A stretch of 64,000 nucleotides of DNA from Corallium rubrum. Taxonomy: Eukaryota; Cnidaria; Anthozoa; Scleralcyonacea; Coralliidae. Each line of letters begins with the position of its first letter. Positions within the stretch are counted from its first letter, which is position 1. A program made the position numbers and the translations under genes. Below are positions 1,729-63,578 of the stretch, one piece after another. The stretch lies in the NCBI GenBank assembly GCA_964035015.1, contig CAXIUP010000256.1, forward strand, positions 118,501 to 182,500. The letters are read 5' to 3'. Below the pieces are notes generated by a model, which was not told the DNA's origin, ran no database searches, and saw only the letters and a program-made list of their open reading frames with translations.

Positions 1729-4133
1729 GCATGGTATACGAACAATCGAAAGACGTATGGCAGAGTTTGGGTTAAGTATTAGATCTACGTACTCGGATAT
1801 ACAGGACGAGGAACTTGATCGTATAGTACATGAAATTATGCGAGACTTTCCCAACACCGGATATCGAAGAATGACTGGTATATTAACGAGCAGAGGAATT
1901 AGGATTCAACAATGGCGAATAAGACAAGCAATGCGAAGAGTGAATCCGGCTGGGGTTATGTTACGAGCCCTCGAGATTCGTACGATTTATAGACGTCGCT
2001 ACAGCGTACCTGGTCCACTATCATTATGGCATATCGATGACAACCATAAACTTATAAGGTATATGATAATTCTACTTTCTTTAGGGTTAATAAAACAAGT
2101 CAATACCCAATATATCTGCCGATTACTACTAAAACAACTTTGTCTTTCTTAATTAAAGATGGAGGTTTGTTATCCATGGGGCCATAGACGGCTATTCTAG
2201 AATGGTCTTCTTGTTTTTGCAGTGCAACACAAATAATCGTGCTGTCACAGTATTTGAATTATTTCAGAAAGCTGTCAACACTTATGGCCTAGCTTCTCGA
2301 GTTAGAACAGATAAAGGGGGAGAAAACGTTGACATTGCATGGTTTATGCTATCACATCCTTTGAGGGGCCCCAACAGAGGTAGCCATATAGCTGGTAGAA
2401 GTGTTCACAACCAGCGTATCGAAAGACTGTGGAGGGATGTGTACACTGGCTGTACATTTGTCTTCTATAATTTATTTTATGACATGGAATCCCAGAATCT
2501 ACTAGACCCATCAAATGAAATACACAGTTTTGCACTATGTTACATTTACTTGCCAAGAATACAACGCAGTCTGTCTATTTTCATGCGTGGACACAACAAT
2601 GGTCCCATTTCAACAGAGAGAAACTCTACACCAATCCAATTGTGGGTAAGGGGTAGTATTTACTCACAAGCATCAAACCACATGGATATACCACACCTTG
2701 ATGAACAGGTTAGTATCATACTGATTAGAAAGTTATTTGAGTGTGATAATTTTAAAATCATTTCAAAAATAGTGACATAAAATAATATAAATTTATCTCA
2801 AAATCAAAGTGATAAACTATAAATTTATCACACTTCAAATTTACTTTAAGTAACTTCAACTTGTCATTCAAGTGTAAATGCCAAATAAATTGTTAGAGAA
2901 TGAATGTGGGTGATTTATGGGATTTAGTGTCCCAAGTATTTAGATAGAAGGAAAAAGGGTAAAAGTGTGGTACATAGGACAAAGGTATTTGACAGGCCCA
3001 CCAAGAGACAACTGGAGGCCTGGAGAAAATGATCAGGTGGAAGCCCCTCTAGTTTTTAGGTGGGTCTGGCCCCCAGAATTGTTTTGAATTATTGGGTTCT
3101 CAGAAAGGGTATTTCCTGCATTTTAAGGTCAAACTATTTTCATATTTTTACCTGCAGTGCGGAGCCCCATGTTGTATGAGGCCCAGGGACAAATTGCCTC
3201 TTCTGCCCTGGTGCCCCCTCTCTGCAGTCATGAGTACTGATGGTACTCATTAGTATTCTCTATTAAAGTACTCAGTTTATATGAATACTAATATATAAAA
3301 AATACTAATCGTTAAGGCCTTTGCTTTTCTTTGAGCACTAATAACCTTGATTAGCATTTTCTATATAGGGAATGTCATTGAGTTATAACCCAAATTAGTT
3401 AAATAAACCCACTGTCTTGCAAAACTCTGAAGGTTTTTCGAAATAGAACATCAAAATACTGGGGTTGTGATTGGCTGAGACCTTGTTAAATAATGAAGGT
3501 AGATGTTAACAGTAAAGCCACCTAACTAAACATAAAGTACTTGTTAGTAATGATTTACATCTTATCAAATGTCACAAACATTTATTGTACCAGATGCAAC
3601 ATCTACATTTTACATTATTCTTTAGATCTGTTTTTCTAAAAAAGTTCTATTAAATTAGAATCCCATCATTAAAATGTTTCAAATTTTCAAAAATTAAGAT
3701 AGGAACAAAAAAAGAAATAAATAATCAGCCTTTGTACAAGACAATACTTTGGGCAAAGTTTCCTTGTACAAACTTACCATTTGTAAATGATGTATGTGAA
3801 ATAGCTACAGTTTCTTACAATTTTTGTAAAAACATTGTTTAACATCAAAATTTGATTTATATACTTTTTTATTTATAATTGTAGACAGACTTGGCTAACT
3901 TTGGCATTGACTGGGAAGGGCCAACTCCCTCAAGTGAATGGGATGGACCATGTTCCATTGAAACAAATGAACCAGTTGAAGTACCTGACACTGCCATACC
4001 ATTATTAAATGATGATTATGCTGAACTCAGAAGAACAGTGAATCCACTTCAGGAATCAGAGTATCACGGAGTAGATCTCTACCTTCAGACCTTGGGATTT
4101 ATCGCGGAAAAAATGAGGGGTCCTGCACTTTAA
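1729..4133 (+). CDS. DDE integrase-core protein, three visible exons, 5' incomplete
   Basis: Integrase-core protein, presumably a transposase or transposase-derived DNA-binding protein acting in the nucleus. Exons 1729-2058, 2159-2708 and 3885-4133 join in phase: acceptor TTTTAG at 1728, intron 2059-2158 (AG|GT...AAAG|AT restoring the codons for IRWRFVIHG), and intron 2709-3884 (CAG|GT...TGTAG|ACA). The catalytic triad is intact: D in [11 protein letters not shown] in [10 protein letters not shown] in [11 protein letters not shown]. The N-terminal part ([16 protein letters not shown]) looks like the end of a helix-turn-helix. No start codon with a sensible N-terminus is visible upstream, so a first exon is missing or lies outside. 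The intronless gene at 56157 is a divergent relative. It lies tail to tail with the HECT gene at 5486-10145. The second intron (1.2 kb) holds nothing recognised. Confidence 0.85.
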
Positions 4134-4153
4134 TAGTCAAGTTTTATGTACAG

Positions 4154-4513
4154 TCAGGCCTTTTCGTAAGGAAAACTGCACGTGTGCGGTAATAATTAAT
4201 TTGCGTGCGGTAATAATTTGCGTGCATAAATAATTTTGCGCGTGCGAAATCGCACGTGCGAATCGTCACGTTCTACACGTGACCTGAAATGTTGCTGGAT
4301 ATTCATTGTATAGTTTAGTTGTAAGACGTAAAACCTACTACGCTGTGAAAACTGTTACAGTAGCCTACATTAAAGACGATATACGTTACATTGCAATACC
4401 TTACGTTGTGAAACGTTATGTTACTTTGTGAGACCTTGCGTTACGCTTAGTTGGGTTTGCGTGTGTGCCGGCGTGTGCGCGTGCCATCGCACGCGTCAAA
4501 CGAAAAGGCCTGT
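4154..4513. mobile_element. MITE-like element with 13-bp terminal inverted repeats
   Basis: CAGGCCTTTTCGT at 4155-4167 is mirrored exactly by ACGAAAAGGCCTG ending at 4512. The interior is rich in GTGCG, CGTGC and CACGTG words unlike the AT-rich surroundings. No coding capacity. Target-site duplication is not clear; ACAGT occurs near both ends but not abutting on the right. Confidence 0.7.
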
Positions 4514-5485
4514 AACAGTATGTAACTATGTATAAGTTTTGTTTCATTTTAATGCTCTTACTTAAAAAATAACTCAACTGTATTTTTGTAAGAATTAATC
4601 AAAGTACATGAATTAAGTGTGATTAAAGATTTAACATCTTTACTGAAGCATTAACAATTAAAACAGGTTCGGGTACCAGTAGTGGACATACGTGTTGTAT
4701 AATCAAGTTTCACAAGTGATGTTAATTAGAACTTATTACCGGCGCTAAGGGAAAACAGTGTGTTTGTCGTGGCCCAGAGACCAACATTGTTGTGCAAGGC
4801 AATATAATATGGGGGCCACAAACACTGTTTTTCTTTGGTACTGGTAAATACATGTAAGTAGTTTTGTTTAATATACCAAGTGTCAAATGATGTAAATATT
4901 CTTTTGAGTATACAGACAGTAACAAAAAACACAACTGGTTAAACAAAGACACACTGGACCTTACGTTCTACATGTATTTGTACTTTTCATACTTTTCCTT
5001 AGGGTAAAATAAAACAATCCATGCTCGCAGCTATGGATCACGCAGACTCGCAGATGATATAATAAATTTCAACAGGCTCGCAACAGCAGTTTGTCCAATG
5101 ACAAAGCCTGCCTGCCTAAAAATACGAACTTTGGCACTTGGTATATAATAAAACCCTTTATCACACAAGTGACTTCATTACCTCCTGACTCACCCACAAA
5201 GAAATTCTTTCTTAAATTTACTAAAAACAGAATGCTGGGAAATATTATACATTACTGGTGATCAGTTAATAGTTATAATTTATTGCTTTGGTTACAACAA
5301 TGAATTATGAGTGTTTCATGAGAATATGAACTGAATTTTCTACTTAAAAACAGTGAATGTCAATGTTACTTTTTTCCAACTTTAAATCCTAATATCAATC
5401 TCAATAAAATATTGATCATAACAAGAAACAGAATCCAGTTTTTGAATTGTTTGTACAGATACTTAAATGGAGCAAATCGGGTTTC
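4514..5485. other. Intergenic, tail-to-tail gap; one short hairpin
   Basis: AT-rich spacer between the integrase and HECT genes. The only structure seen is an imperfect inverted repeat of about 85 bp at 4750-4837 (AAAACAGTGTGTTTGT against ACAAACACTGTTTTT, GGCC on both arms), probably a small fold-back remnant. Confidence 0.5.
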
Positions 5486-6562
5486 CTAAATATCACCAAA
5501 TGAGCAACAGCCATGTCTGAGTGTAATTTTCATAGCTTCTGAAAATGCTTCAAAGTCATCTGCATATTTAGTTGGTAACTTTAAAACATGAAAACATGAA
5601 TTGGCATCAGCAAGTTCACCTGTGGGTAGATACTCAATAGTTATCTTTGGCTGTAGTCCCAAGATAGGTATTCTTGTGCGTGCTGTCACAAATTTCATAA
5701 GGAGAACTGGGATTGAAACTACACCACCCATGGCTGGAATGTCTTCTGCAACATAGAAATAAGACATTTTATATTAAGACAAGAACACATCAATTCTCTT
5801 GTTGAGATTCTCACTCTAGTTCTGTTTAATAGGATTCTATATTCCTTACAATTATCATTTCCTGGGGGATGGGAAAATCCACCCAGAAAAATTACAAGAA
5901 AAATTAAATACAATTTTAAAAAAATCCCAGAAATTCAAGTTACCCACCTGTATCATGTGTGCATTGTTCAATAAACTGTAGCAGATTATTAAGGGTAGCA
6001 AGCTCTTCTGGTTTGCTTGGCTTGACAATCTCTATGCAGTTTTGTAAACACTGAACAGTAACATCAGTTTCCTCTTGGTATCTAAACAACTGCTCACCAA
6101 CATTTGGTGCCTTTTTTAACATGTCAACCATACCAAAATAATTTAAGCCTTTGCATAAATTGTTCAGGGCACCAAGGCGTTTTGTTAGAAGTTCTTCACA
6201 CAAGAGCAAATTAATGAATTCATCTTTGTTTTCAATTGTCAGCATACGTTCTACTGGCCATCCTGAACTATCGAATACATGACAATATTGGGGGGTTTCA
6301 ATGGTTGCAAGAATTTCATCATTAGTGTTTGTACCTCTGAGCTAAAACAAAAATGAGAAAAGAGAAAGAAAAATCTATATAACATTTTACCTTTAAGATT
6401 TTTATTCCTGAGTTGATTAGCCACACTAGACTGGAGGGGAGGGCTGGGATATCCTGACAACAGACAGACAGACAGACAGACAGACGGACGGACAGACGGA
6501 CGGACGGACGGACGGACGGACGGACGGACGGACGGACGGACGGACGGACGGACGGACGGACG

Positions 6563-6604
<42 letters not shown>

Positions 6605-9600
6605 GGTGAAAGCATATTAATCTCCTGACAGAGGTAACAATCTAGTACATTAACTTACCTGATCTATGAAGGAGTTAATATTACTGTAGGTTGGGTTTTT
6701 GGGCATGTCATCAACTTTTATATAACCTGCTGCCAATTCTGAGTTTCCAGTAACAATATACTGGTACACATAAGGTGCAAGAACTGGAAAGCCAGGCCCA
6801 CCATGCAAAATTGAATGTGAAATCATGATTCCAGCCATTTTTTGCAGGTTTGCATTCTCCCAGCTACGCCCAGGTATTCTGCGAGTTTCATGGCCCTCAA
6901 ACAGTTGTTCACTGATGACTCTTAACAAACTTTCAAAGAATTCTTGCTTTAGGGCACCTGCATCAATTCCACATTCATTTGAGCCATCAAATGACACAGA
7001 AAGAGGTCTCTTCAGCTCTTCACAGCTCTTTGATTTGTAAAATATCAAGGCATGTTTCCACAAATTTGCCCGATCAATATCTAATATCAACGCAGAACCA
7101 TTTGTTCTTTGGCTTTGGTAATTTTCAAGAAGCTTCTGAATGGATGGGGTTAGATCTATTGAAAAGTGAAATAAAAACAAATCAACAAGGCAAGTACACA
7201 CATATGTAGTGATTTGTACAAGTAAGCATTCTGTAATTATTTAATTGAAATAATATTCTAGTGGTCAGAGGGGAATAGTTAGTGAGCACTTACATGTATA
7301 CTCATTTTCTTCAAGTGGGACCCCTAAGGATTTGGAAGACATAAGAATGATATGGTAAATGATAAGTCAGATATTAACCCTTTCCCTAGTAGGTCACCTA
7401 AAACTGGCCACTTTGTTATTTTACTCTCTTTAATGTCAGACGATTTGGGGACTTAGAGGGAAGGGGTTAAAGACCCTACAAGGAGGCTAATGGGCATATA
7501 AACTTAATTCATTTTTGCCTCAATGACATGTGTTATACCTTCACTAATATAATTATTAACTGGTTTAGGAGAAAGTAATTTTGTGATAGCATCATCTATT
7601 TCTCCACAAGCTTCTTGCAGGATTGCATTGATTTCAACAGGGTCATTATCAGGAAACATTTCCTGTAGTATTCGTACCTTATCTGCATATACAATGAAGT
7701 AAAAGAGTGAATATTAGTTATACAGTACATAATTAAAAAATGAAATGGCTATACCTTTTTATAATTACAATTACAAGAGTGAGTGAGAAATTTAATCCTT
7801 TATGTAATCACTGAAGGGTTTACTTTATGTTAGTCATATAGTACATACAGATCATTCAATTTCTATTTTTATAAAATAATATTAAGAAATTGGATTCATT
7901 TCGTGCATGTTTAAGTTCCAATGCAATACCACCATGGACTACTCCAATTTTCATAAGCATCCCCTGTTGATTGAGAACCATATAATTTCCAGGGGCTATA
8001 GCCATAGAGGCCAATTTGAAGCATGGAAATTCCAAGGAAGGAAGCCCTTTGAAACATTTCAAATTTTTTGGGGACACTTTTGAAGCACTAGAAATTCTGA
8101 AGAGGGGGGCAAGTGCAACATAGAAATTTCAGGGAGAGCAAACAAATACTATCTAGAAATTTTGGAAAGGGGCCAAAATGCTACCTGGAAATTCCATGGA
8201 GTGCTGGTTAACAAGGGGGCTGCGGATAATGCATGGATCAATTCTTCATGTAACAATCCCCCCCTGGCAACACCCCAGAGATTTGTCATTTATGTAGTGC
8301 ATGTGGTACTGTACTTATATAATTTCCTTTTAAACTTAAACATAAAAACCCCATAAGAAGAAGGCCAAATGTTTCAACAATTGTGGAATAGACAATTAGG
8401 AGTTTATGATTATCATACTGTTACTGTAAAAATCATGTACTGTATTAGTTACATGTACACTGTCACACTTTAATTCAAACTGAATTAAGGCTAGGATTTT
8501 TATTTTAATAAATTTGTATCTATGATGTATAACAATATAATTATCAGAAAGCCAAGAAAAACACATACCTATCTCAGGTAGCCAAATTATTACATGTGCC
8601 TCCATCCCTATACTCCTACCCCTATCAATCACTTCCCCACACCCATTGCATTATCCCCACTGGGTTGCCCAAGAGGGGTGGGCCATGGTAATTAACAGGA
8701 AGAATTGATTCATGCATAATAATTGGAAATATATCCTAATATCATGGTAGTTAAGACATTTCACTAAAAAGTTATGAATGTGTTACTAATACCTCCCCTT
8801 TCTAGTAGTTTATCTTCATCATCTTTAACAAGGACACTAACATCATCATGAGGTATGTCGTCCTGAAAATTATAACAAATTTTTAGTCATCAGTGTATTA
8901 AACATAGATGGCTAACAACATACAAATGGCAAATGCTTAGTTATTCATGTTGGAAATCTCAAAAACAACAAATATAAGGTAATAAAAATTTATAGAATGT
9001 GATTATGAAATTTGACACATTGCTTGTGATTACCTGTGGAGATTTGGGCTCACTGGAATTTTGGACTCCACACAACTCACGGTGTCTCCGCATATTTGTC
9101 AATGGAAACTCTTCTCCGCATTTGAAGCAATTGACTTTCGGTGTAGACTGAGATGGAGCCTAATAATATGTAAGAATGTTTAAATTATTGAACTGTCACT
9201 CATGTTTTTCCAAGCATGGAAATATGAAACAGTACAAACTAAAACATGTGATACATTCATAAAAGTGATACAAAGGCTTGTGTGAATATATATTAAACTG
9301 CTATAATTCAAATTCTAAACTAAACAAAATACCTGATCGATTTCCACTTCTGACATATCCAAATGAGCTTGTAGCGGACGAATATAACCCAAAGCTTGTC
9401 CCAGTCCTGACTGATCGCGAAGGTATGGAACAGAATATCCAGAAGCAGGTGCAGGTATTAAGATGAGGTCGCTGTTTGTTCCACTTCTCAAGATTTCAAA
9501 TCCGCCACCAGTTTTAAGTTTTGGGTAAACAGATTCAAGTTTGTCCTTAACCTTTAATGCGTTATCTTTATTTCCAAATACGATTTTTTTCCTGCCTAAC

Positions 9601-10145
9601 CCAGCTGATTGCAAATTTAACTTTTGCAATCTGGAAGGTAGTACCTTCTGGTCAGGATTTTCTAGACAAATAAATTCATGGGTCCAAGTTTCTTTAATTC
9701 GGTAGTATGGAGAAGGTCGATTACATGCACGTCGTGAAGCCGAAGGGCGCGATGCTTTCTGTATTGTTGAGAAACTCGAAGAACTTGGCCCAATGTTATT
9801 CGGATAAGGAGCAAAAAGGCTGCGGAAATTTGAAAGGATAGCTTGTTCTCGACCACTAGCACTGGTATTTAATTCATTCAAATTACTCGAACATGCAGGA
9901 GCAGGTCGTCCGGGTCCTGGACGTTGGTTTGGACCACTGGAATTTGAATGATCAGGCGATCTTGCTTGCTCAGATCCTTGGTTTGGATTCTCTTGTGAAA
10001 CTGTTGCAGTCGCACCTACTCTCGTTTGAGTACCTGAGCTTGACAGAATGTCTGTTGCTTGTCGAAGTAAATTTATAGCCGTGGAAAAGACACTTTCATC
10101 TGCCATGTTGAATGTGGTGCGAAGTGGCTGGGAGACTGGAGCCAA
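5486..10145 (-). CDS. HECT-type E3 ubiquitin ligase with zinc finger and CUE domain, 767 aa
   Basis: Predicted E3 that takes ubiquitin from an E2 onto its own cysteine and passes it to substrates. Exons (reverse strand): 10145-9333, 9159-9034, 8862-8793, 7682-7539, 7155-6659, 6341-5948, 5745-5486. All have GT-AG ends with matching phases, totalling 2304 nt, exactly 768 codons. Order: low-complexity N-terminus (Ser/Pro/Asn, 1-135), a conserved region with ETWTHEFICL and GYIRPLQAHLD (150-265), a C2HC-type finger (FKCGEEFP...HRELC, 280-301), a CUE domain in exon 4 (LQEMFPDNDPVEINAIL), HECT N-lobe in exons 5-6 and C-lobe in exon 7. The catalytic cysteine is about residue 732 in ADANSCFHVLKLP. An alternative start at MADES lies 13 codons in. 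Resembles the G2/M-phase-specific E3 ligase family expanded in fishes and cnidarians. No stop or frameshift, so apparently intact. Confidence 0.92.
6464..6604. repeat. Tetranucleotide microsatellite (CAGA)n / (CGGA)n
   Basis: Compound array in the intron between HECT exons 5 and 6: CAGA, then about 16 CGGA units, then CAGA again. The symmetric flank-core-flank order suggests a CAGA array in which an internal A-to-G variant expanded. Confidence 0.97.
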
Positions 10146-10182
10146 AAAATGGCGGGAACCGCGTGCAATCTTCTGTTGAGTG

Positions 10183-10332
10183 GAACAGAAAATTCAGTTT
10201 GTCACAAAATAGGACATGGAACAGGAAATGCGGATTTTCTGTCGTGTCCTATTTTGTGATACATTGGACTTTCTGTCGTGTCCTATTTTGTGATACATTG
10301 GATTTTCTGTTGTGTTCTATTTTGTGCTAAAG
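10183..10332. repeat. Tandem 38-bp repeats with an inverted copy, upstream of the HECT gene
   Basis: Three direct copies of a unit containing TGTCCTATTTTGTGATACA (10238-10330), preceded by the inverted word CACAAAATAGGACA at 10182-10195. It sits 40-190 bp upstream of the HECT start codon, so it may overlap the promoter; this is positional inference only. Confidence 0.8.
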
Positions 10333-10505
10333 TGAATTTTTTTATGCCATATAAATAGCAGTTTTAGTTTCTCAAGAAATGCAGGTAAGCACAAAATAGT
10401 TTTAAGCAACGTTAAATTCATTCTAGCAGAAAACTAAACGATCCGTAAAATTCAACCTAACCCAGAAAAATCAGTAGTTAATTTTGACGGGAATCACCCA
10501 CCATA

Positions 10506-10507
<2 letters not shown>

Positions 10508-10543
<36 letters not shown>

Positions 10544-10585
10544 CGAAGCAGAATTCGCCAAGCGTCGGATTGTTCACCCGCCAAT

Positions 10586-10640
<55 letters not shown>

Positions 10641-11029
10641 TAGAAGTGTTGTTGCAATAGTAATTCTGCTCAGTACGAGAGGAACCGCAGATTCAGACAA
10701 TTGGCATTTGCACTTGGCTGAAAAGCCATGGTGCGAAGCTACCATCTGTTGGATTATGACTGAACGCCTCTAAGTCAGAATCCGTGCTAGAAAGCAACGA
10801 TTCATTCCTCTGGATGATCTTAGGCGAACGAGAATAGAGGCCCCCGGGCCTCCTGCGTCACAACGTGCCGACGAGCAGACTACGCTCCGATGTACTACCC
10901 TGACCAAAATCTAAATTTTCCAGAGCTAAATCCTTTGCAGACGACTTAAATAAAGAACGGGGTATTGTAAGCAGTAGAGTAGCCTTGTTGCTACGATCTG
11001 CTGAGATTAAGCCCTTGTTCTAAGATTTG
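10508..11029 (+). rRNA. 28S rRNA 3'-terminal fragment (pseudogene)
   Basis: About 520 bp matching the end of eukaryotic large-subunit rRNA: TTTTTGATCCTTCGATGTCGG, the GGGTTTAGACCGTCGTGAGA block, the sarcin-ricin loop CTCAGTACGAGAGGAACC at about 10667-10684, GACTGAACGCCTCTAAGTCAG, and a 3' end at about TTCTAAGATTTGT. The rest of 28S is absent to the left, where the sequence changes abruptly around 10505. Small indels (a shortened CCCTACTGTAGAAG, GCCATGG for GCCAATGG) also argue for a displaced fragment. It may have moved as DNA with adjacent spacer or through an RNA intermediate. Confidence 0.93.
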
Positions 11030-12563: not shown

Positions 12564-12720
12564 GGTAATTGATAAAAGGAGAATAGTTGCGAATAGTGGC
12601 GAATAGTGCGAATAGTGCGAATAGTCGACGAATAGTGCGAATAATCGGCGAATAGTGCGAATAATCGGCGAATAGTCGACGAATAGTCGTCGAATAGTCG
12701 AGTGATCGGCGAATGGTACA
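12564..12720 (+). repeat. Left terminal inverted repeat of the MULE, minisatellite-built
   Basis: Unique outer 18 bp, then iterated GCGAATAGT / CGACGAATAGT words of 9-13 bp to about 12715. Shorter than the right terminus, which has at least twice as many units. Confidence 0.88.
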
Positions 12721-12768: not shown

Positions 12769-15700
12769 ATGTCCGAGACGACAAAGACATTCTGTGAGGT
12801 ATTTATTCCTTTTTTCTTTCTTTTATTTAAACTATATAACTAAAATGAAAAGTATACTCGAGGTGAATGTTAATGTTTGTTAATAATGTTTTAAGGCGAT
12901 TTGTTTATATATTTTATGTAAATTTGTATGGCCGTATGCGCAAATATTTCGCACTGTGAACACTCCAAATCGAGGGAAATCAAGCATGTTAAGGACCTAC
13001 AGGCGATCGCATTTCGACATGTAATTATGCAAATTCACTTTGAATTTGTAAACAAAGATTATCCGTCTGTAAATCGTTCTATATGGATGAAATACAGTGT
13101 AATGTATACAATTTATAGTACTCAACACTTCTCACGCATGTGGCCGTGGGGATATAACTATAAGCGGTTTAATAGGGCTGTTTTCTATAGGCACTGAAAC
13201 ACGTATTAATTAAGTATACCTTATTCATAAAGGCTGCCGATTTAAAGTTCTCTATAAACATATAGTAATTTTGAATTAAATTCAACACCAGCATGCTGTC
13301 TGAAATGGATTTTATGTCCACTTTATATTTTTTTATTGCCTATACAGGGGAGTGTCCTAATATAGTGGGATTTTGTGTTAGTATTTTGCACAAATTTGTT
13401 TTAAAAAATAATTTTGCATTCAAAATTGTGTAGAAAAACATGTTATACTCATCACACGAGTCAAGTGTGAAACAAAAAAGGTGAAACTGCTATGTTATTC
13501 ATGCATACTGTAGACCCGTGGGCTTATAGTAAAGGATGGTGCTTATATTTACAAAAGCCAAATAGCCATGTGCTAGTAGATTTGTGGGCTTATGTACAAG
13601 AGCTGGGGTTTTTTTTTGCGGGGCAGTGGTGGAAAGCATAGGGCAACTCCCCCACCTTTAAGGCAAAATGGCAAATACATATGATTTATGGGGAATTTCA
13701 ACCTGAAAAAATTTATAGTATATGACATGCACATAGCTATTTATGGTACAGTATATAACATGCACAAATATAGCTAATATTTATCAATTGAATATTTATC
13801 ATTTAGAAAGAGACTATTTATATTTCAAGCTCAGAATCTGAACCTTCCCCGAAAAAGGTATGACGGTATAATATTACCATACAGTATTATGGCATGGTTT
13901 AATCATTGTCATACTTGTCTCAAAATTATGTTTAAAATCTTGTTTGAACATTCCAATTATCTAAATTATCATGCATGGTAAGTAAATTCACTCAATTTAC
14001 TGAATAAGCAATATTACTGTAAACTTGGTTGGGTATCACAATAAAGAAGGCAATGTAAAAATAGCTTGCCAATAGAGACTCAACTTAATGGAGGGTTGAT
14101 GCCAAGCCCAGGGGGTATGCGACCCCCAAGCCGAGGTAACTGTGGCAACCCCACCACAGCCCACCTCCTGGCACCAGTCACACTGCCAAGCAGTGGAAAA
14201 TTATACTTACCCTGCCTACCTTTAGGTGTGGGTGGGTGGGTAGACAAAAACCCACGATCTCCGATGCGAGTAGTGCAAACACTGGTCAGACACTCCTTTG
14301 GCCATATAGCTTATCATTCTCTTATCAAATTGAACTCTGCCCTTTCAACTTCCTTTTACCAAATATGGTGCATTTGCAACCAATCACGCTGTGATCACAT
14401 TCTGATCACACTGGTGTGACTGTGATCCTACAACAGCTTAGTCAACACTGGCAGGACTGTAATGCAATACTCTCATTTTATCATGCATTTTATCAGTCAA
14501 GCTCAGACCACGCTGGCTAAACTGTATTAAGTCAGCTCATTGTCTTCTTTTTTACCTAGGCTAAATTTTCATTTAGCCATATATAATATGATATACTTTC
14601 TTGTTAGAATTCATGTACAAATATCACCAGAATTCAATGTTTTGTTTGTAAATGCAGGAGTATTTGCACAATCCTATAGTACCACTTAGAAATAACCTAA
14701 CAGTGCAGTCGAGGTTGTGGTTAAGTTAAACAAAGATAGAAATGGTACTAAACTTTAGTAAAGGACAATAAAATTGGCTAGTAACACAGAAAACACTCCA
14801 TATTTTTATTCATAGTGATTTAGAGACAGTTTTACTAACAGCTTACTGCTTTACACTTAAATACAAAGGATAATTATAAGCAGAGGATCAAAATAGGAAT
14901 AAATTATCCTATCAGATGTTTTTGTATGGTCCAACCCTTAGTCCAACCAATGGTGATAGTCACTGTTTTCATTTAAATATTCTAAATTTCCTTTAAAATG
15001 TTGGTGAACTTCTGTACAGCCAACATCCAGGATCTGACAAAAATGCAAGGTGAATCTCTAAGTCCCTGTGGGCACCCAGCAACTAATTATTGTTTTTGTT
15101 TATTTTGCATAGATTAAACATGAGCAAATTATTGATTTGGAATGCCTAATTGAAAATAGTGAACAAGCATCACAGCCTGTACAGTGCAAAACTGAGGTTG
15201 ACACAAATGGCCAAAGGTACATTATTACTGATTCATAGACTCAAATTAAATTAGAAGCATCAAATAATTAATACAGTAAATATGAAACCTTGTATTTTTG
15301 TAAAGTCCATAACTCCAGGCCCGTAACTAAAACATACATCAATTGATATTATTTTTGACCAAAATGCAGGAAAAAACCCATACCAGGAAACACGAAAATA
15401 CTTTCAGTAAATGTTTTCATGTGTTTAATATTTCAATTCTGCCTTTGGCAAATCTAGGTGTGGAGATTCTGTAAATGAAAACTACTGTAATCACATTTAT
15501 GATATAATTTACTATTTTGTCAATAACTTGTTTATCTCTTAGCCACAAAGCTCTTCAGATACAATTTCGTGCCAAACCTTTGGACTACTACCAAGGGAAC
15601 CGTGAAACATCTGTCCTTGAGAAATGTTCCGCACTATATTCACATTCCCTTGCAATGAACATCCTCCTGGATAAAGCAGTATGTTCCACCTATCCAACCT

Positions 15701-22978: not shown

Positions 22979-22990
22979 GTTTGTTTGCTA

Positions 22991-35873: not shown

Positions 35874-36054
35874 ACTCCCTCTTCCGGGGGACGACGCCGG
35901 AACGGGCAAGGGACTTCTCGTGGATTGGCTCAGCTGTGACCGTCAGGTCGATTCGGCAGGCAGTTAACAACCGACTTAGAACTGGAACGGACAAGGGGAA
36001 TCCGACTGTTTAATTAAAACAAAGCATTGCGATGGCTGGTGACTGGTGTTGACG

Positions 36055-36088
<34 letters not shown>

Positions 36089-36111
36089 AGTGAAGTAATT
36101 CATCCAAGCGT

Positions 36112-36144
<33 letters not shown>
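35874..36144 (+). rRNA. Internal 28S rRNA fragment ending at the R2 insertion region
   Basis: Matches eukaryotic 28S: GACGCCGGAACGGGCAAGGG, GATTGGCTCAGCTGTGACCG, CAACCGACTTAGAACTGG, GACTGTTTAATTAAAACAAAG, GATTTCTGCCCAGTGCTCTG, GTAAACGGCGGGAGTAAC and TATGACTCTCTTA. In intact genes this continues TTAAGGTAGCC, the R2 target; here it stops at CTCTTA and R2 sequence begins. The 28S sequence downstream of the site is absent. Its 5' edge joins the GC-rich repeat. Confidence 0.95.
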
Positions 36145-36222
36145 GGGGCTCCATGCAGAGAGACCTTCACGTGGTGAGCCCTGTCAAACCACTTGCTGGT
36201 TTGCGAACTGTCTCTGCATAAA
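36145..36222 (+). ncRNA. HDV-like self-cleaving ribozyme at the R2 5' end
   Basis: Folds by hand into the double-pseudoknot pattern of R2 ribozymes. P1: GGGGCTC (36145-36151) with GAGCCCT (36176-36182). P2: ATGCAGAGA (36153-36161) with TCTCTGCAT (36211-36219). P3: ACC (36163-36165) with GGT (36173-36175). P4: CAAACCA (36185-36191) with TGGTTTG (36197-36203). The cytosine at 36204 in the CGAA strand after P4 is the candidate catalytic base. Self-cleavage would free the element's transcript exactly at the 28S/R2 junction before G36145. R2 elements are known to use this device; the fold here was not computed. Confidence 0.82.
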
Positions 36223-36253
36223 GAGGTAATTTATATCTCTTATTTGTGTCGGA

Positions 36254-40559: not shown

Positions 40560-54513
<13,954 letters not shown>

Positions 54514-54815
54514 ATCTGGATAATATATCAAAAAATCCAAAAACACTATGTAGAGTTCAAGTTGTATAATTATGCAGTAGAATTCACTTTAAAATAAACC
54601 ATCTTGATTGAAATAACTCCTGCAATTATAAAGATTAGCATTCACAACTCTTTCATATCTCATTTCCTAGCTTCTTCAGAGATTAAGATTTTTTGTCCCT
54701 GAGCCGGGCGTAGGGCCGAAGGCCCGGAGCCCGGTGAGGGTGCTAATCTCGACATGCGTGGAGTTCACTTTACACGCGTGTTCAAATGCGAATCAGTTTG
54801 AGCGATCTGAATATT

Positions 54816-54871
<56 letters not shown>

Positions 54872-55434
54872 GACGGACCATGCGCGGTGAAGATTGTAGG
54901 GCACTGGAAACAATATAGTTCTTGACAAAAAAGATTTGAAGTAATATATTCTTGACAAAAAGACTTGAGAAAGGAGTTTTGGGGATACGTACATTCATTT
55001 CAAAAGAACAGAAACAAATCAACGTCTTGACTAAAGGAAACCCGTCAAACCGAACCTCGGAAGAGGGAAAAAGATAGGAAACCAACGATGATAAAGGCCG
55101 AAAAGTTTAAGCTACGGTAAAAATATAGAGCAGTCGCTCTCAGTAATCACGAACACTTAGTAGCAAAACTGTTCGAGTTTCCCTGTTTACATCTATGACT
55201 GTTAATTTTGTTTTATATTATGACATTTTGTGTGTCCTTGAAGTCCGTTTTAAACGTATCATATCCATAATTGCATGTTTTTTCTTGCCGATGCCCGTTG
55301 TATTTTTTACCTGTGGCTGCCGTCTTATCTTCTTTTAAATAGTTTTCTTTTTGTAAAACTACTTAATATGTACGGTGGCCCACAGCGGCAACAGATATAT
55401 ATATTAAATACATCATAAATATATGTACAATACA
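54514..55434. other. No gene; GC hairpin and (TA)n tract
   Basis: GC-rich hairpin CGTAGGGCCGAAGGCCCGG at about 54709-54728 and a (TA)24/(TG)n microsatellite at 54818-54870. The rest is unremarkable AT-rich sequence. Confidence 0.6.
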
Positions 55435-56075
55435 CTGAATATATTTTCAGTACACAGATATATTTTCAGTACAGAGATATATTTTCGGTACACAGATATA
55501 TTTTCAGTACAGAGATATATATTTATATTTTCAGTACAGAGATATATATTTTCAGTACAGAGATAATATTTCCAATACAGAGATATATATTTTCAGTACA
55601 GAGATATATATTTTCAGTACAAAGATATATATTTCCAATACAGAGATATATATTTTCAGTACAGAGATATATATTTTCAGTACAGAGATATAATATTTCC
55701 AATACAGAGATATATATTTTCAGTACAGAGATATATATTTTCAGTACAAAGATAATATTTCCAATACAGAGATATATATTTTCAGTACAGAGATATATAT
55801 TTTCAGTACAGAGATATATATTTTCAGTACAAAGATATATTTCCAATACAGAGATATATATTTTCAGTACAGAGATATATATTTTCAGTACAAAGATATA
55901 TTTCCAATACAGAGATATATATTTTCAGTACAGAGATATATATTTTCAGTACAAAGATATATTTCCAATACAGAGATATATATTTTCAGTACAGAGATAT
56001 ATTTCCAATACAGAGATATATATTTTCAGTACAGAGATATATATTTTCAGTACAGATATATATTTTCAGTACTAA
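55435..56075. repeat. Minisatellite of about 20 bp, two alternating variants
   Basis: About 30 units of ATATATTTTCAGTACAGAG alternating irregularly with ATATTTCCAATACAGAG. Ends 80 bp before the start codon of the integrase gene. Confidence 0.96.
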
Positions 56076-56156
56076 ACTACTAATATACATATACTATGGG
56101 TATTTCCCAGGCTCTGTAAGGCTTTAAAACTCGGTCACATATGTCTGTCATCCAAC

Positions 56157-57326
56157 ATGGCTACCTCAACGACCTCGTTTGATTTAGATTCTATGGAAGA
56201 TGAACGAAGTTTGATAGAGTACTATTTTTCGAGAGGATATCAGTATAAAAGCATTGTCGATTTCTTGTCTAAACGACATGGAATCAACATTTCTGAACGA
56301 ATGCTGCGAAATCGTTTGAAGGAATATGGTCTCCAAAGGAGATCTCCCGACTTTGATATCAATGAGATACGTCGAGTTATACAAGATAAGTTAAACGGCC
56401 CAAGTAGTATGGGAGGATACCGTTCGATGTGGCATGCTCTTAGAACGGAGGGACATCAAATTCCAAGGCGTATTGTTGAAGAGTTGATGAGAGAACTCGA
56501 TCCAGATGGTTGTGAAGCCAGGCGTGGAAAACGTTTGCGTAGAAGAACCTACAGAGTGCCGGGCCCTAATTTCTGCTGGCATACGGACGGCTACGATAAG
56601 TTAAAGCCATACGGCTTTCCCATACATGGGTGTATCGATGGGTGGAGTCGAAAAATTATATGGTTGCGCGTCGCGAGATCCAATAACAAACCCGAGATCC
56701 CGGCATCATTTTACCTACAAAGTGTTGAGGCATATGGCTGTCCGGTGAAATTGCGTAGCGACTGCGGTACTGAGAATGGCATTATGGCCGCAATGCAGTG
56801 CGAGTTTCGTTCAAGTGGTGATGCTCATTTTTACGGCACATCGCCTGCTAACCAGAGGATCGAATGTTGGTGGTCTCACTTCAGAAAAAACCGTTCTACC
56901 TGGTGGATTAATTTCTTCAAGGATCTGTGTGAAAGGAATCTCTTCAATCCAGATAATGATCTTGAAAAGGAGTGCCTTTGGGTCTGCTTTTCGGATGTCA
57001 TTCAGAACGACCTCGACTTTGTAAAGGAGCAGTGGAACACCCATCGAATCCGGGATTCCAAACACGACACAATTCCTGGCATACCTGATGAGTTGTACTA
57101 TTTTCCAGAGAAGAAAGAAGGTGTCGAGAATTTAAGTCTTCCAATTCCCACTCAACAAATCCAGTTTGTAAAGGAGAATCTTTTACAATTTGATGAAGAT
57201 GAAAATATAATGCAGGAGTATTTCAAATATATTTTCGAAAACAGTGAACTTCAACAACCAAATAATTGGGAAGAGGCTGAACAATTGTATTTCACACTCA
57301 TGGCAATTGCTAATGGCACGGAATGA
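56157..57326 (+). CDS. Intronless DDE integrase-core protein, 389 aa
   Basis: Single-exon gene. An N-terminal helix-turn-helix-like region (about 18-60: EYYFSRGYQYKSIVDFLSKR, ERMLRNRLKEYGL) precedes the integrase core. The triad is D144 (CWHTDGYDKL), D202 (LRSDCGTEN) and E236 (NQRIECWWS), spacing D-57-D-33-E, near the usual DD35E pattern. IHGCIDGWSRKI and EQWNTHRIR are family words shared with the gene at 1729-4133, where the corresponding coding sequence has introns. No stop or frameshift, start ATG in good context (ACATGG). Its tail faces the HECT-type gene at 58530-63578. Probably a transposase or a domesticated relative; transposon termini were not found. Confidence 0.9.
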   Translation: MATSTTSFDLDSMEDERSLIEYYFSRGYQYKSIVDFLSKRHGINISERMLRNRLKEYGLQRRSPDFDINEIRRVIQDKLNGPSSMGGYRSMWHALRTEGHQIPRRIVEELMRELDPDGCEARRGKRLRRRTYRVPGPNFCWHTDGYDKLKPYGFPIHGCIDGWSRKIIWLRVARSNNKPEIPASFYLQSVEAYGCPVKLRSDCGTENGIMAAMQCEFRSSGDAHFYGTSPANQRIECWWSHFRKNRSTWWINFFKDLCERNLFNPDNDLEKECLWVCFSDVIQNDLDFVKEQWNTHRIRDSKHDTIPGIPDELYYFPEKKEGVENLSLPIPTQQIQFVKENLLQFDEDENIMQEYFKYIFENSELQQPNNWEEAEQLYFTLMAIANGTE

Positions 57327-57470
57327 CTTACAATAGAACTTGGTACATGTACTTTTTGAAAAAACGTTTTTGGCAAATCACAATAAATCTGAAACTTAGA
57401 ACTTATTTTTGTAGTTATAATACGTTAACACGCTATTACCTTGTATTATTTCATATTTGCAACATTTCAC

Positions 57471-57641
57471 TAAGGCCTGGTTTCCATATAGCCGAAGAGC
57501 TGGTGGAGCTGCTGGAGGAGTGATGGTCCAATCAGACAGTGCTGAATTGGCCAGCAATAAAAAGCCATATGTGATTGGATCATCGCCCCTTGCCGCAGCC
57601 ATGTCACTGGCTCTTACAGCTATATGGAAACCAGGCTTAAG
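57471..57641. mobile_element. MITE with TAA target duplication, PIF/Harbinger-like
   Basis: TAA then GGCCTGGTTTCCATATAG, mirrored by CTATATGGAAACCAGGCT then TAA. About 165 bp, non-coding. The TWA-type 3-bp duplication suggests PIF/Harbinger. Confidence 0.75.
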
Positions 57642-58529
57642 TCTAAATGAAGTGCTAGCCACTGCAGGTGCACAAAGCTAGGGGAAATTGTGGACTCTCA
57701 AAGTCTCTGAATAATTTTCTGCATAATTTGAGGGCATTTTAGGAAAAGGTGTGAAAAAAGATTTGAGGGCATTTTAGGAAAAACAGTGAAAAAGCCCTGG
57801 CTTTGAGCTACTATAAGCACATGTTTTGATCTACCAACGACTCACTTTGGGTAGAAGACAATGATACATTAACCTTCTTTTTTTTAACAAATTTATTTGG
57901 ATCATATATATTTAACAAGAATAGAACATTAATAGTATTACATAACAAGATGACGAAAGACATGCAGTATAAAAATGTAATAATAAGATCCAAAAGGGGA
58001 AGGGTGCGAACGGGACTCTAAGGCCCATGCAAGGCACCCACCCAAATAAATTTAAAAAGTCTACAAAAAATTAGATATGGAAGGAAGAAGTGAATGACAA
58101 AGTAAATCAACGAGTGATCAATGAGTGAGCGACCGAGTGAGTGGGTGGGTGAGTGACTATAGTGAGAGTGAGTGAATGTGAGTGAGAAACACTGATGTTA
58201 CTTTACTTACTTTACTTACTTTACTTACTTTACTTCAACACTGATGTTAACCTAACTTTAAAAGTTAGGTCCTCCAAAAGCATCCCATTTGAAATTGGAC
58301 CAACAGGTAGCTACAGCCTATAGTCATGCTATATATATATATACTCAGTGCAAGAAACAGTTTTTTTTAAACTTCAGTTTTTAACAAGATAAGTTGTTAA
58401 AGAAATGGATACAGCTGTATTACTTTGTCATTTGTCTACAACAAATAATACAATGGAAAAATTTAAACCAAGATTTTTTTTAATGTGTACACAAAAGGTT
58501 GAATTAAATATATATGTTGCTATAAATGT
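57642..58529. other. Intergenic; minor simple repeats
   Basis: A 22-bp direct repeat (GATTTGAGGGCATTTTAGGA, near 57725 and 57760), GAGT-rich stretch 58095-58185 and (TTAC)n at 58199-58236. No gene seen. Confidence 0.6.
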
Positions 58530-61500
58530 TCAATTAAGCAAGATTTCTGGTGAGCTTATTATTCCAGTCATCATTTCATCCTTGAACTCTTTGAAATCCC
58601 CATAGTTAGCAACAGGCAACAAAATGGTAGGGCCGCATGTTCGTGCTTGAGGCAACTTTGACTCTCGTGATGGTGCTGTTCCTGTTGTTGATGGCAGATC
58701 AGATTCTATAAACATTATCATCGGAGAGTTATTTACTCCCCATCCAAGCATCGGTTTTTCCTCGGAACCACTTGCAAAGCGTAGTATATCTTTCGGCTTG
58801 ACTGTGGAATCTGGCTCTATGACAAAAATTATGTACATATATTCAAGTGACGCCAAATTACAGAATATGTCTTGGATGAAAAAAACTGTTCACAAGATAA
58901 TATGTATTTATTAAACTGTAACATAGGATAATTTATTAAACTTTAACACAGGATTGACCAGCTCTAACCTGAAGTGCTCCTGACAAAAGACATCCACATT
59001 TCATACACATCTTCTTCTTTCTCTCTTCTATTGCTTCCAATTTCACTGAACTGTGGCAAGAAGGTCGTGATTATGTAGTCAGCAGAAACATCTTTGTGCA
59101 GACCATCACCATGTACAAACACAGAGCGGAATGATGACACATTCATCCTGATTAGTTCCAACAGTTTATAATGTGACAAGCCTTGGCAGAATTCTTCCAG
59201 TTCATTTCTACATAAAGGAATATAATTCAAAACCCAATAATAAATATTTAGAGATCAATTTGAATGACAAAGTGCATCAAAGGGCATGGCAACCAGAACA
59301 AGGTTCAAAACAAGCAGAATCATGGGGTGCCAGGCCTCTTGCCATAGTACTAGCATAGGTAGCCCAATAATTCAGTCATGACACGAGTAGTATCACCTAC
59401 TGTCTGTCGTATTATATAATATTAAGTATATTACATACGACAGACAGTCACATGATACTACTCGCGTCATGACTGAATTCTTGGGCTGCCTATGGTACTA
59501 GCTGGGATCACAGAACAGTAATACAACCAGAAGTCCAACTCGCGTGAACATAGGTGCATTTTGTCTGCGCATGCGTGAGATTGGCAAAAACAAGATGGCG
59601 GCAACAAACCAGTCTAGATTGAAAAGTCTCTTTGCTAGTGTCCTAAACTAAAAAAAGTGGGACGAAGGAATATTTGGGATATCGTTGTACATCATATCGT
59701 AATTTTTTCATAAATCGCAGAATGTTAAGAACTTGGAATGCCCTTCATTATTACTGTAAATATCCAATTGAGGTACATGTTTAAATTTGGCAGTTTGCAA
59801 ATTTTTACAACTAATCAAACATTTGAAAATTACTAGATACATAATAAGGACACTTATATATAATTTTGGTGAGGTTTCTAGGAGTAGATTTTGAGAAAAT
59901 ATATTTTAAAAAAAATATTATTCTATGTTTCTCAAAACCTACTCCTAGAAACCTCACCAAAATTATATATAAGTGTCCTTATTACGTATCAAGTAATTTT
60001 CAAATGTTTGATTAGTTTGTCAAATGTTTGAAAAATTTGCAAACTGCCAAATTTAAACATGTACCTTAATTGCATATTTACAGTAATAATGAAGGGCATT
60101 CCAAGTTCTTAACATTCTGCGATTTATGAAAAAATTACGATATGATGTACAACGATATCCCAAATATTACTTGGTAATGCTTTTTTTAGTTTCGGACACT
60201 AGCAAAGAGACTTTTTAATCTAGACTGTTTTGTTGCCACCATCTTGTTTTTGCCAATCTCGCTCATGCGCAGACAAAATGCACCTATGTTACTCGCGTGA
60301 AAACTTGTCCGCATTTCATCAACGCACATGCGCGATATATTTACACCCGACGCCACTCCAAGCAATCCTGGCAAGTTCCCGACGCCATCCTACGCAATCC
60401 TGGAAAGTTCCCCCGGCAGTTTTGACCTTCCTGCCGGGGAAACTTGCCAGGATTGCGTAGAATGGCGATGAATGAAGATGCGCGACGCGACATGCGCGAG
60501 GACATAAACTTGAAAGGTTCCGACGTGAGTTGGACCTCTGGTTGTATTACTACTCTGTGCTGGGGTGCCTCATAGTGGCTCACGGCCCATAATATTTTGT
60601 CCGTCCAGTACAGATTGATTTCATCATGCCAAAACAGTATATTTATTGAGACAGAGATTCCAGGTGGAAAACACAATTTAGTTAAAAATATCAGCTATAT
60701 TGGTTAGTTTATTAAAGCCCTGCATACACTAGAGAAAATTTCCGAAACAAGTTACCGAAACACGGTTTCAGAAACAAAAGTTTCCAGTGTATGTTGAAAA
60801 GTTTCCGAAACTTTGTTTCTGAAACAAAGTTTCTCTGATTAGAACACTGTTCTATTTTTTGAAACTGTAATGTTACCCCAACACTTACTAGAATCTAATC
60901 AAACTTTATTCACATATGCGGGAGTATTTATACTTACAGGCTCATATATTATTCAGAACTCATCCAAGCATTCAATAACACCACAGAAACATTTAAAGTT
61001 TCGGAAACTTGTTTCGGCAACTTGTTTCAGAAACTTGTTTCGGAAAATTGTTTTGGAAACTTGTTTCAGTGTATGCCAGGCTTAAGAATTGCCAATGAAG
61101 CTACAACAAACATTGTAGTCTACAAGTAAAGTGCACTTTAAGTGCAGTACACCCTTGTTCATTGATATACACGTAGGTAACACACTTCATTTCAAATTTA
61201 TTGTAATTATAATTACTGTACAGTACCTGCATTTACCAACCACCAAATACTTAATGACATTATCCACAATAGATTTGATATCTTTCAATTTGAACGACAA
61301 GTTCTGGTAGCCTGCTTCAAGCATAAGCTCGGTGACCGCTTCTTCCTGTATTACCTTGGAAAGGACCATTTGGTTATCAATTTCCAGGAGCTACAACAAA
61401 ATAAATTCAACACGTTAATACAGTGCTGTAAAATAGACTGCACATGTATTCGAGTGGCCTGGTAGCCATGCAGGCTTCGCCTTGGACTAGCCATTGTGCC

Positions 61501-63578
61501 ATTTTGTGCCAGCACTATGGCAACAATGGCTGGCACAATAGCCAGTCGAAGTCTGCCAGTATAGCCACTTTCAACTATTCAATATTTCCCACAAATAGAA
61601 AGAGCACAAAAAGGGACTTTTACTGACTTTTTAAAAAATATATTTTACAAAATGGCCATTGATAGCCGTTTAACCGTCCTGACTCTGATCACATGAGAAT
61701 TCACGGCACCTCTTCTGGGCATTCCTTGGGTCACAATAACTTGTACATTGCTTGTTTTTTTGTTTGAGTTCTTAGATAGTTTATGGGTGCCAAATGGTAA
61801 CTGTTGCCTGCTTGGAGTCACTCTCGAGTGTACACAGATATTGCGCTAGTTACTCACCTTTTTAAGGATGTCTCTATGTGGGGCATAGGGGACTTCATCT
61901 AAAGTTGGCTTTGTACTATCATATCCAATAGTGATATAGTTGTAAATGGATGGTGAAAGAACAGATGGTGGATCCCCACCAAAGATTAATGAAACAGCAA
62001 ATGCCCTTCCTGCCATATAATATTCATGACTATTCAGCTTATTGGCATTGTGTGTCAATACATATGCTCCCACATTGGCTGTTTTTTTGAAAACACCTGA
62101 ACATTCCACAACATTATTCCTAAGCAACCTTAGGAAATCTCGTCTTGGTCCTTTGTCATCAACAGTGTTCATGCTATCAGTGAACTTTACCTATATGAAC
62201 ACAAAATGTCAATGAACTAAGTATGTGCTGCTGTGCATACTGTGTAGTAATGGCCTTGCATGCTTAAACATTTAGATTAAAATTTTGGCAGAACACTATC
62301 ATATTCAAAATTTGAAACTTCCACACACTGTAATTGCCTGTGAGATTCCTGTCAGTTGGTATTTGGTACATGAAAATATAGTTCAACATTACACCCCTAA
62401 ATGTCACTTAAAGTGTTTAGTTAATACATGTATACAGTTTAAAATTTATAATTATACTGTACAAAATTTATAGTATCCAGTATAAAATGATGGAAGGAAT
62501 GTTACATAAAGTAATTAATAAAATAAAATGATAGGTCTCCAAGTGGTGTTACAATACAAGTACAAATGAGCTCAGTGAATAGCAAATGATAATTTTGTCC
62601 AACTCTAACTGAAATGATGGATACAGATAATCCTCTTTTCAAGCTACAACAAACAGCTTGCTGCAATCCCTTTATTAATGCCGTTCGTACAAGAAGAATT
62701 AATAATGGCTTGAGAACCATTTCAGAAAATATGCCTCTGAAATATTCATCTGTGAATCTTGTACGCGGTCAAAAAATTTGTTGCTCACAGTGGTTGCTGC
62801 AAAAAGCTATTAATATCAGACTAGTGAGGCAAGTTCTACAACTCAAACAGAAATGATTTCAGATGAAGAAATACCTCAAACAGACCAAGATTTCACCAAT
62901 AACTAGGGTAAATATATAAGAGAGTATAATTATACCATTTTAAAATGATAGACTATGCTTATCCTCAGTGGACATGAAAATACACAAAACCATGATTTTG
63001 AATGGCCTGCTTGGTATATTGTAATTGCTGCATCTCTACAACAATACGAGATCCCATCCTGATTTTTTTTGTGAAAGATCCACTGATTATTAATGAGTAT
63101 TATGACAAAACAGAAAAAAAATTTTAAAAATGGTTTTTCAAATATCAAAGTTTGAAATGTTGAAATTTAGCTATCTCATATTTTCCCCTGAATGTTTCTA
63201 AAAATGCAAGATGTGTAAATCGCAGTTCAAGAGCGTCATTGTGACAATAAACATGGCTTCTTGATTGGCAGTCAGGTTGTCGAACCAGCATAAAGGTCAA
63301 AAATTAAAAGTATAAATATCTTGACTTAAATCTCTTCTGGCTAACACTGGTTTGGTGCAAAAAAGTGTTTACTTTACGTAAGTGTTCCAATTTTCCATAC
63401 CTGAAAATCCATTGTATCATCTACATTTTGCTGTGTCATCTCTCTCACAAAGCTTTTCCATGGTTTGGATCTTCTAATGACTAACACAACAGACTTAGTA
63501 AATGATGTAGCTGAGCTAATATGTTGCTGTAATAATGTAGGTGCATCGAGCACATCATCACATAAAGGAACATCATCC
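58530..63578 (-). CDS. HECT-domain protein, 3' five exons, 5' end beyond the window
   Basis: Predicted ubiquitin ligase. Reverse-strand exons 63578-63401, 62190-61858, 61390-61227, 59207-58969, 58816-58530, total 1201 nt, consistent with one base left from an upstream exon. HECT N-lobe words: VDDKGPRRDFLRLL, FAVSLIFGGDPPSVLSP and PYAPHRDILKK. Last exon: FASGSEEKPMLGWG and the catalytic cysteine in LPQARTCGPTILLP, 34 residues before the end. Same domain type as the gene at 5486-10145 but clearly diverged; no CUE or zinc finger is seen in the visible part. Phases agree throughout and no stops occur. Its fourth intron holds two fold-back elements and a MITE. Whether the gene starts just right of the window is unknown. 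Confidence 0.87.
59346..59502. mobile_element. Palindromic MITE, about 157 bp
   Basis: TACTAGCATAGGTAGCCCAA and ATTCAGTCATGACACGAGTA on the left mirror their counterparts on the right, with ACGACAGACAGT/ACTGTCTGTCGT near the centre. Nearly perfect hairpin. Confidence 0.85.
59512..60558. mobile_element. Fold-back element of about 1 kb with an insertion in its right arm
   Basis: AATACAACCAGAAGTCCAAC at 59519 mirrors GTTGGACCTCTGGTTGTATT ending near 60550. Arms of about 400 bp meet near 59920 (CTAGGAGTAGATTTTGAGAA against its mirror). The right arm carries about 220 extra bp (60300-60520) that itself contains an inverted repeat, GCAATCCTGGCAAGTT against AACTTGCCAGGATTGC. No coding capacity. Confidence 0.85.
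60714..61084. mobile_element. MITE with GAAACAAGTTT words and TAA duplication
   Basis: TAA-AGCCCTGCATACACT at the left against AGTGTATGCCAGGCT-TAA at the right. Subterminal iterations of TTTCCGAAAC/GTTTCGGAAA words lie on both sides. Shares end sequence and TAA target with the element at 57471. Confidence 0.75.

Follow-up and report, generated by a model that had tools for sequence, protein, structure and literature searches.

The stretch of Corallium rubrum DNA analysed here (64,000 nucleotides, C265:118501-182500, hereafter the window) carries an integrase-like gene and a gene for a HECT-type E3 ubiquitin ligase close to each of its ends. An earlier note on this DNA had described the two pairs as having the same order, convergent orientation and distances of 1.35 and 1.2 kb between the genes, and Pfam matches confirm this arrangement. 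We consider it very probable that both pairs are two-gene DNA transposons of the IS3EU/GingerRoot superfamily, each with both ends present and each carrying a HECT ligase gene alongside the transposase gene; this confidence extends to the element and its two-gene make-up and leaves the ligase's target aside. Both elements extend past the window, which is why their termini were missed within it; coordinates below 1 or above 64000 lie beyond the window and come from neighbouring contig sequence. The left element is laid out as follows, with ends marked by terminal inverted repeats (TIRs).

-8832 to 10505 (C265:109668-129005; 1 to 10505 in the window): left IS3EU/GingerRoot-type transposon with HECT gene, 19,338 bp including a nested insertion, target duplication GCTTTT
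-8477 to -8121, plus strand: first block of the left integrase, outside the window
about -8120 to 1733 (1 to 1733 in the window): nested transposon of about 9.85 kb with TIR ATGCCTAAAATTAGGCTAG.., interrupting the integrase coding sequence
1734 to 2058, plus strand: integrase block with a helix-turn-helix (HTH)-like region and the first catalytic D (LWHIDDNHK), ends approximate
2159 to 2708, plus strand: rva_4 core block of the integrase with the second D (RTDKGGEN) and the E (RIERLW), splice sites placed by eye
3885 to 4130, plus strand: C-terminal block of the integrase, by eye like the C-termini of intact relatives
5486 to 5773, minus strand: last block of the HECT gene, HECT C-lobe with the catalytic Cys (NSCFHVLKLP), Pfam HECT 3e-9
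5943 to 6341, minus strand: HECT middle block, from similarity to relatives, ends approximate
6653 to 7240, minus strand: HECT N-lobe block, from similarity to relatives, ends approximate
7504 to 7713, minus strand: block with a CUE ubiquitin-binding domain, E 3e-7
8959 to 9159, minus strand: block with a C2HC-like zinc finger, weak and below the Pfam cut-off
9318 to 10110, minus strand: N-terminal block of the HECT gene (MADESVFSTAIN...), one part sharing 43% identity with an intact relative's N-terminal region
10143 to 10505, minus strand: 3' TIR (TATGGTGGGTGATTCCC...), pairing with -8832 to -8494

The nested transposon has inverted repeats of its own, in which 58 of 59 bases agree. The left integrase, thought to begin at 1729, has its true start at -8477, beyond the window. 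What separates its first block from the block at about 1734 is this nested transposon and no intron. Inspection by eye makes a GT..AG intron of 100 bp plausible at 2059-2158. A stretch of about 14 bp (GTATACGAACAATC) is common to both flanks of the nested transposon, large inverted minisatellite arrays lie inside it, and a Tc1-like HTH fragment was recognised by eye at -5876 to -5604.

The right element has the same plan.

55371 to 68235 (C265:173871-186735; 55371 to 64000 in the window): right IS3EU/GingerRoot-type transposon with HECT gene, 12,865 bp, of which 2.5 kb (64001 to 66500) read as N, target duplication AATATG
55371 to 55861, plus strand: 5' TIR, taking in part of the ATATATTTTCAGTACAGAGAT minisatellite
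56157 to 57326, plus strand: right transposase, rva_4, a single open frame of 389 amino acids from ATG, with D (HTDGYD), D (RSDCGTEN) and E (RIECWW) located by eye
58530 to 58889, minus strand: last block of the HECT gene, HECT C-lobe with the catalytic Cys (ARTCGPTILLP), Pfam HECT 1e-4, just under the cut-off
58967 to 59254, minus strand: HECT middle block, from position and a weak translated match to the relative L032
61849 to 62190, minus strand: HECT N-lobe block, placed by its position, its open frame and a resemblance to the left block seen by eye, unmatched in Pfam
about 66951 to 67640, minus strand: first coding exon of the HECT gene, outside the window

With this first exon the HECT gene reaches well past 63578, where it had been thought to end. 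At its start the predicted protein has a zinc ribbon match that, at 1e-4, falls short of the curated cut-off. A minisatellite is indeed present upstream of each integrase, as had been noted, but the two belong to different structures. On the right, the minisatellite forms part of the TIR of the element itself, with one array at 55439-56072 and an inverted one at about 67744-68213. The left one (275-1427) was assigned to the nested transposon because an inverted copy lies near -5270 to -3920.

Both transposases belong to the rva_4 family. The main exon of the left integrase matches Pfam rva_4 (PF24764) at 2e-69, with a weak rve match as well, and the right transposase matches the same family at 1e-37. 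Besides rva_4, the transposases show weak HTH_21/Clr5 matches, and the D, D and E residues were found by eye in both window copies. No zinc-binding integrase (HHCC) domain was detected at E 0.1 or better in the window transposases, in a search that covered the left protein apart from its first block (-8477 to -8121).

The ends of the left element were reached through its insertion site, a degenerate copy of 28S ribosomal DNA (rDNA). This copy is interrupted after GCGACGTT-GCTTTT at -8833 and continues with GCTTTT at 10506, and the split led us to the TIRs TATGGTGGGT..ACCCACCATA and to the target duplication GCTTTT. The TIR arms are 87% identical over 373 columns including gaps, and 59 of the 60 outermost base pairs agree. 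A candidate pair of ends for this element, at -2853/13189, was dropped, as it lacked an extended inverted repeat; the other TAYGG/CCRTA motifs listed for this element were also set aside, the interrupted 28S copy marking 10505 as the true 3' end. The rDNA halves lie at about -8880 to -8833 and at 10506-11028, and more 28S sequence occurs at 35989-36240; rDNA remnants are present on this contig. Among the nine elements for which both ends were available, insertion into 28S was noticed only at this left copy, flanks on this contig being those searched for rRNA, and we make no claim of rDNA targeting.

The right element is bounded by the TIRs TACGGTGGCC..GGCCACCGTA and flanked by AATATG. The outermost 80 bp are identical to those of the opposite end (68235 to 68156), and identity is 92% over 502 columns with the minisatellite included. 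A paralogous empty site was also found: when the flanks of the right element are joined, they match an uninterrupted copy of a repeat in L017 at 71-75% identity. The second piece of this alignment spans the junction, with a 1-base gap there, and the L017 repeat adjoins another element.

Alongside the window copies, we examined 18 further integrase-HECT pairs. Ends of the form TA[CT]GG..CC[AG]TA and a perfect 6-bp duplication were present in nine of the nine elements with both ends available, the duplications being ATAAAA, TATAAT, GAAGCA, GTTTGG, AATCTC, CTTATG, CTGGAA, GCTTTT and AATATG. Of the other 11 pairs, seven open with TATGG at the start of homology, their far ends lying beyond the sequence in hand, and for four (L024, L025, L026 and L034) no end was recovered within the stretch examined. 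Over 5.8 kb, four two-gene copies share 99% identity (one contains a further 0.9 kb), and their inverted repeats measure about 410 bp. They share TATGG..CCATA ends, occupy different genomic places and are each flanked by a different 6-bp duplication; transposase and HECT genes are co-mobilised.

Ginger1 and Ginger2 elements have 4-bp duplications and TG..CA ends, which the present elements, with 6-bp duplications and TA..TA ends, do not share. IS3EU/GingerRoot elements, as far as the accessible part of PMC10045372 describes them, share with the present elements TA..TA ends, usually 6-bp duplications, TIRs and an IS3-like, integrase-related DDE transposase with no matched HHCC domain. The accessible part of PMC12730594 likewise gives fungal IS3EU elements TAYGG..CCRTA ends, 6-bp duplications and TIRs longer than 30 bp, a length exceeded by the arms of all nine two-ended elements (about 255-491 bp). 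We assign the elements to this superfamily because these published hallmarks are matched in ends, duplication length and inverted repeats. The difference lies in the gene opposite the transposase, which here encodes a HECT protein; neither 'hect' nor 'ubiquitin' occurs in the main text of PMC10045372. Fungal IS3EU elements with a TET gene also carry a second enzyme gene in opposite orientation, according to the part of PMC12730594 available, but there it is an alpha-kinase together with a TET/JBP dioxygenase, and both search words are again absent from the main text.

The pairing was then measured genome-wide, in scans of a 474-Mb assembly of 312 contigs. The rva_4 search scored 150 places (the best 150 of 1351 candidates) and the HECT search 131 places (from the best 129 of 515 candidates). 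A HECT place lay within 5 kb of 28 of the 150 rva_4 places, near-identical copies being counted separately, and the orientation was convergent in 28 of 28, where 0.41 would be expected. The lineage of the right element was searched with its own proteins, giving 106 integrase places and 150 listed places of the HECT first exon. This exon was within 10 kb of 71 of the 106 integrases in any orientation and of 70 in convergent orientation, the query included; among pairs within 10 kb, 71 of 75 were convergent (0.67 expected). When the lists were pooled, 99 of 256 integrases had a convergent piece of a HECT gene within 10 kb, where 200 controls with shifted positions averaged 5.9 and never exceeded 11. 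These counts are lower bounds, only the best candidates having been scored, and on a closer look two places counted as lacking a HECT gene (L012 and L047) had a HECT C-lobe nearby on the opposite strand. The earlier note had asked whether the two families adjoin more often than chance would allow; they do, far above expectation, and the layout is recurrent. Together with the TIRs, the perfect 6-bp duplications, the empty site and the four near-identical copies at different places, this supports its idea that a DDE recombinase and an E3 ligase move together as one two-gene unit.

The HECT gene is predicted to encode an E3 ubiquitin ligase whose N-terminal part varies between lineages and which also has zinc-finger and CUE-like (ubiquitin-binding) segments. 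In the intact relative L029 most of the protein is a single frame of 659 amino acids, in which Pfam HECT covers 356-656 at 1e-14 and a C2HC zinc finger is weakly matched. The HECT domains of E6AP and AREL1 are the nearest among solved structures, and alignment to E6AP falls into two stretches, N-lobe and C-lobe, with the catalytic cysteines superposed. This cysteine is present in both window copies and in frame in 17 of 18 relatives examined (about eight families), the remaining one being frameshifted. The N-lobe, C-lobe and catalytic cysteine are thus common to these proteins and to the ligases E6AP/UBE3A, AREL1 and G2E3, but here the gene is transposon-borne and the N-terminal parts are weakly matched or unmatched in Pfam. 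G2E3 is presumably the label under which HECT genes of such transposons appear in databases. A fish study reports, in the part accessible, unclassified repeats that match G2E3 among others (PMC5638112), and these repeats may include a member of the HECT-carrying elements.

Both proteins are conserved. Between the L029 and L032 families the transposase is 75% identical and the ligase 67%, and the ratio of the proportions of nonsynonymous and synonymous differences (pN/pS) was 0.23, 0.12 and 0.45 for the transposase, taken in three regions; for the ligase gene it was 0.25 (N-terminal part), 0.44 (linker) and 0.25 (HECT domain). These values clearly point to purifying selection on both genes, of similar strength. 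The copy comparisons exclude the L019/L018 and L019/L017 transposases, the L030 and L033 HECT genes and both L028 rows (those of L030, L033 and L028 for indels or frameshifts), and the remaining within-family comparisons have too few changes to weigh.

These properties suggest a mechanism. Gene 1, which is read inward from the left end, encodes the rva_4 DDE transposase, which would excise the element at its TA[CT]GG..CC[AG]TA ends and make a 6-bp staggered cut for its insertion. From the right end, gene 2 is likewise read inward and codes for a HECT-type E3 ligase with a C-terminal HECT domain and its catalytic cysteine. The ligase would ubiquitylate a nuclear host protein that limits transposition, such as a silencing or defence factor, and its variable N-terminal part would choose the target. 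We tentatively favour this role, as the leading candidate among several, drawing a parallel to the demethylases found in fungal transposons and the deubiquitinases found in Helitrons. The former are proposed to escape silencing (PMC12730594, part of the text), and the latter to protect proteins needed for transposition or to overcome host limits (PMC9741609, part of the text). Helitrons with VTD/OTU deubiquitinases also place a ubiquitin-system enzyme on a transposon, but, to judge from the same portion of PMC9741609, they are rolling-circle elements with a ubiquitin remover inside the main frame, whereas the present elements are cut-and-paste and carry the ligase as a separate gene.

A credible alternative is a ligase directed at the transposase or transpososome of its own element, either limiting copy number or clearing the strand-transfer complex for repair. 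The two genes travel together and both are kept by selection, and in other systems host unfoldases and proteolysis are known to take transpososomes apart. Counting against it, the analysis gave no sign of contact between the two proteins, nor did the distance comparison described below bear out a deep co-divergence. Taken as separate roles, control of the transposase's own level seems unlikely and disassembly or repair of the strand-transfer complex somewhat less likely again; other roles, or none, take up what is left.

Several observations weigh against the main explanation, a two-gene transposon whose ligase serves the element. The target proposed for the ligase is conjectural and its activity is a prediction from sequence. 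The HECT N-lobe blocks of the window copies have no Pfam score, the C-lobes alone scoring, and the nested insertion breaks the left integrase. The selection estimate comes from low pN in one family pair, with synonymous divergence (dS) near saturation. Distances between the two genes were correlated across ten families (Mantel r 0.65, p 0.0006; r 0.71 without the right copy), but the correlation vanished once the right copy and one member of the sole close family pair were removed (r -0.09, p 0.67), and the test used short C-lobes. Among the listed matches, no convergent piece of a HECT gene lay within 10 kb of 122 of the 150 rva_4 places or of 35 of the 106 integrases in the right lineage, and a closer look at L011 and L046 found no HECT within about 1.5 kb; elements without HECT may exist. 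Finally, L030 and L033 have an open transposase frame and a broken HECT frame, from which it follows that single copies can lose HECT.

The last two points would also be expected if HECT were a hitch-hiker, that is, a captured host gene moved passively with no role for the element, and gene capture by transposons is common. Yet the gene occupies an identical convergent slot across transposase lineages that are only about 30% identical, its pN/pS is low and its catalytic cysteine has been retained as described. Moreover, none of the seven HECT places with the best scores, which are probably ordinary genes of the host, has a listed integrase within 10 kb (0 of 7). We therefore regard passive carriage as improbable. 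Next to no weight is left for an old local duplication of a host gene pair (integrase-derived plus HECT) that later diverged, the alternative offered in the earlier note: the pairs do lie on one contig about 46 kb apart in like order and orientation, but they do not align as DNA and show weak protein similarity in the integrase only, the copies are diverged as had been claimed (29% identity across the transposase core), TIRs and 6-bp duplication differ from one pair to the other, and dozens of pairs occur elsewhere. A virus or a Polinton-like or retroviral element with an integrase can be dismissed almost as completely as a reading can be: the integrase-core nature of the rva_4 family and the weak rve match of the left core speak for it, but in the complete elements L019, L029 and L032 the frames of at least 150 amino acids are the transposase, HECT and one antisense frame in the L032 transposase only, an IMG/VR scan with the right transposase gave four pattern matches of which none was confirmed, and ends and duplications fit IS3EU/GingerRoot.

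So far as our literature check reached, the HECT-carrying IS3EU element is a novel variant within a known superfamily. No HECT gene in a DNA transposon or IS3EU element was found among the papers listed from the literature searched, which lacks most subscription journals, Repbase and the GingerRoot paper, where the combination may be noted. Papers on lupin, pine, Passiflora and coelacanth that co-mention HECT and transposons use 'hect' for hectares or lack it in the main text, and a Colletotrichum paper, in the part available, has IS3EU merely as a repeat class.

The rest of the window is rich in other repeats. A piece of 28S rRNA (model 2121-2337) and a reverse transcriptase frame (RVT_1, 3e-20) lie at 35989-39119, and a match to the HDV/CPEB3-like ribozyme overlaps the 28S piece at 36134-36214 (36.3 bits against a cut-off of 35); we take this region to resemble an R2-type rDNA retrotransposon with a 5' ribozyme. 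Frames for transposases of the Mutator-like (MULE) type occur at 15508-18177 and 50694-52301 (Transposase_mut/MULE; ZSWIM-RNaseH-like), and a SWIM zinc finger frame at 23490-24269. On the minus strand, 29074-32653 holds a non-LTR (long terminal repeat) retrotransposon with overlapping endonuclease and reverse transcriptase frames. A frame of 503 amino acids at 42379-43890 has a marginal match to an Ulp1-type protease (C48; 20.8 bits against a cut-off of 20.7) and a proline-rich tandem repeat. Very long simple arrays lie at 48225-50223 (TTGC-like repeats over 2 kb, with all six frames open), 41119-41535 (a GCTT array) and 44010-45278 (ATATAAT and TAATG arrays).

Cut-and-paste transposons are usually thought of as one-protein elements, and here a large family keeps a second gene. 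Part of the genome's numerous HECT genes is explained as transposon cargo, and the TA[CT]GG ends, the 6-bp duplication and the convergent two-gene layout give rules by which such elements can be found and masked elsewhere. A more speculative hypothesis, which we hold as doubtful but worth stating, is that the IS3EU gene opposite the transposase is an effector slot, filled by HECT here and in fungi by an alpha-kinase, either alone or alongside a DNA demethylase; in this genome HECT would then be an ancient core gene whose product marks proteins of host silencing or defence for destruction, its N-terminal part diversifying to track the target. If true, a cut-and-paste transposon would carry a ubiquitin-based counter-defence. 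With a ligase kept under selection in a fixed slot, these elements would be a case in which the action of a DNA transposon on host protein turnover can be tested.

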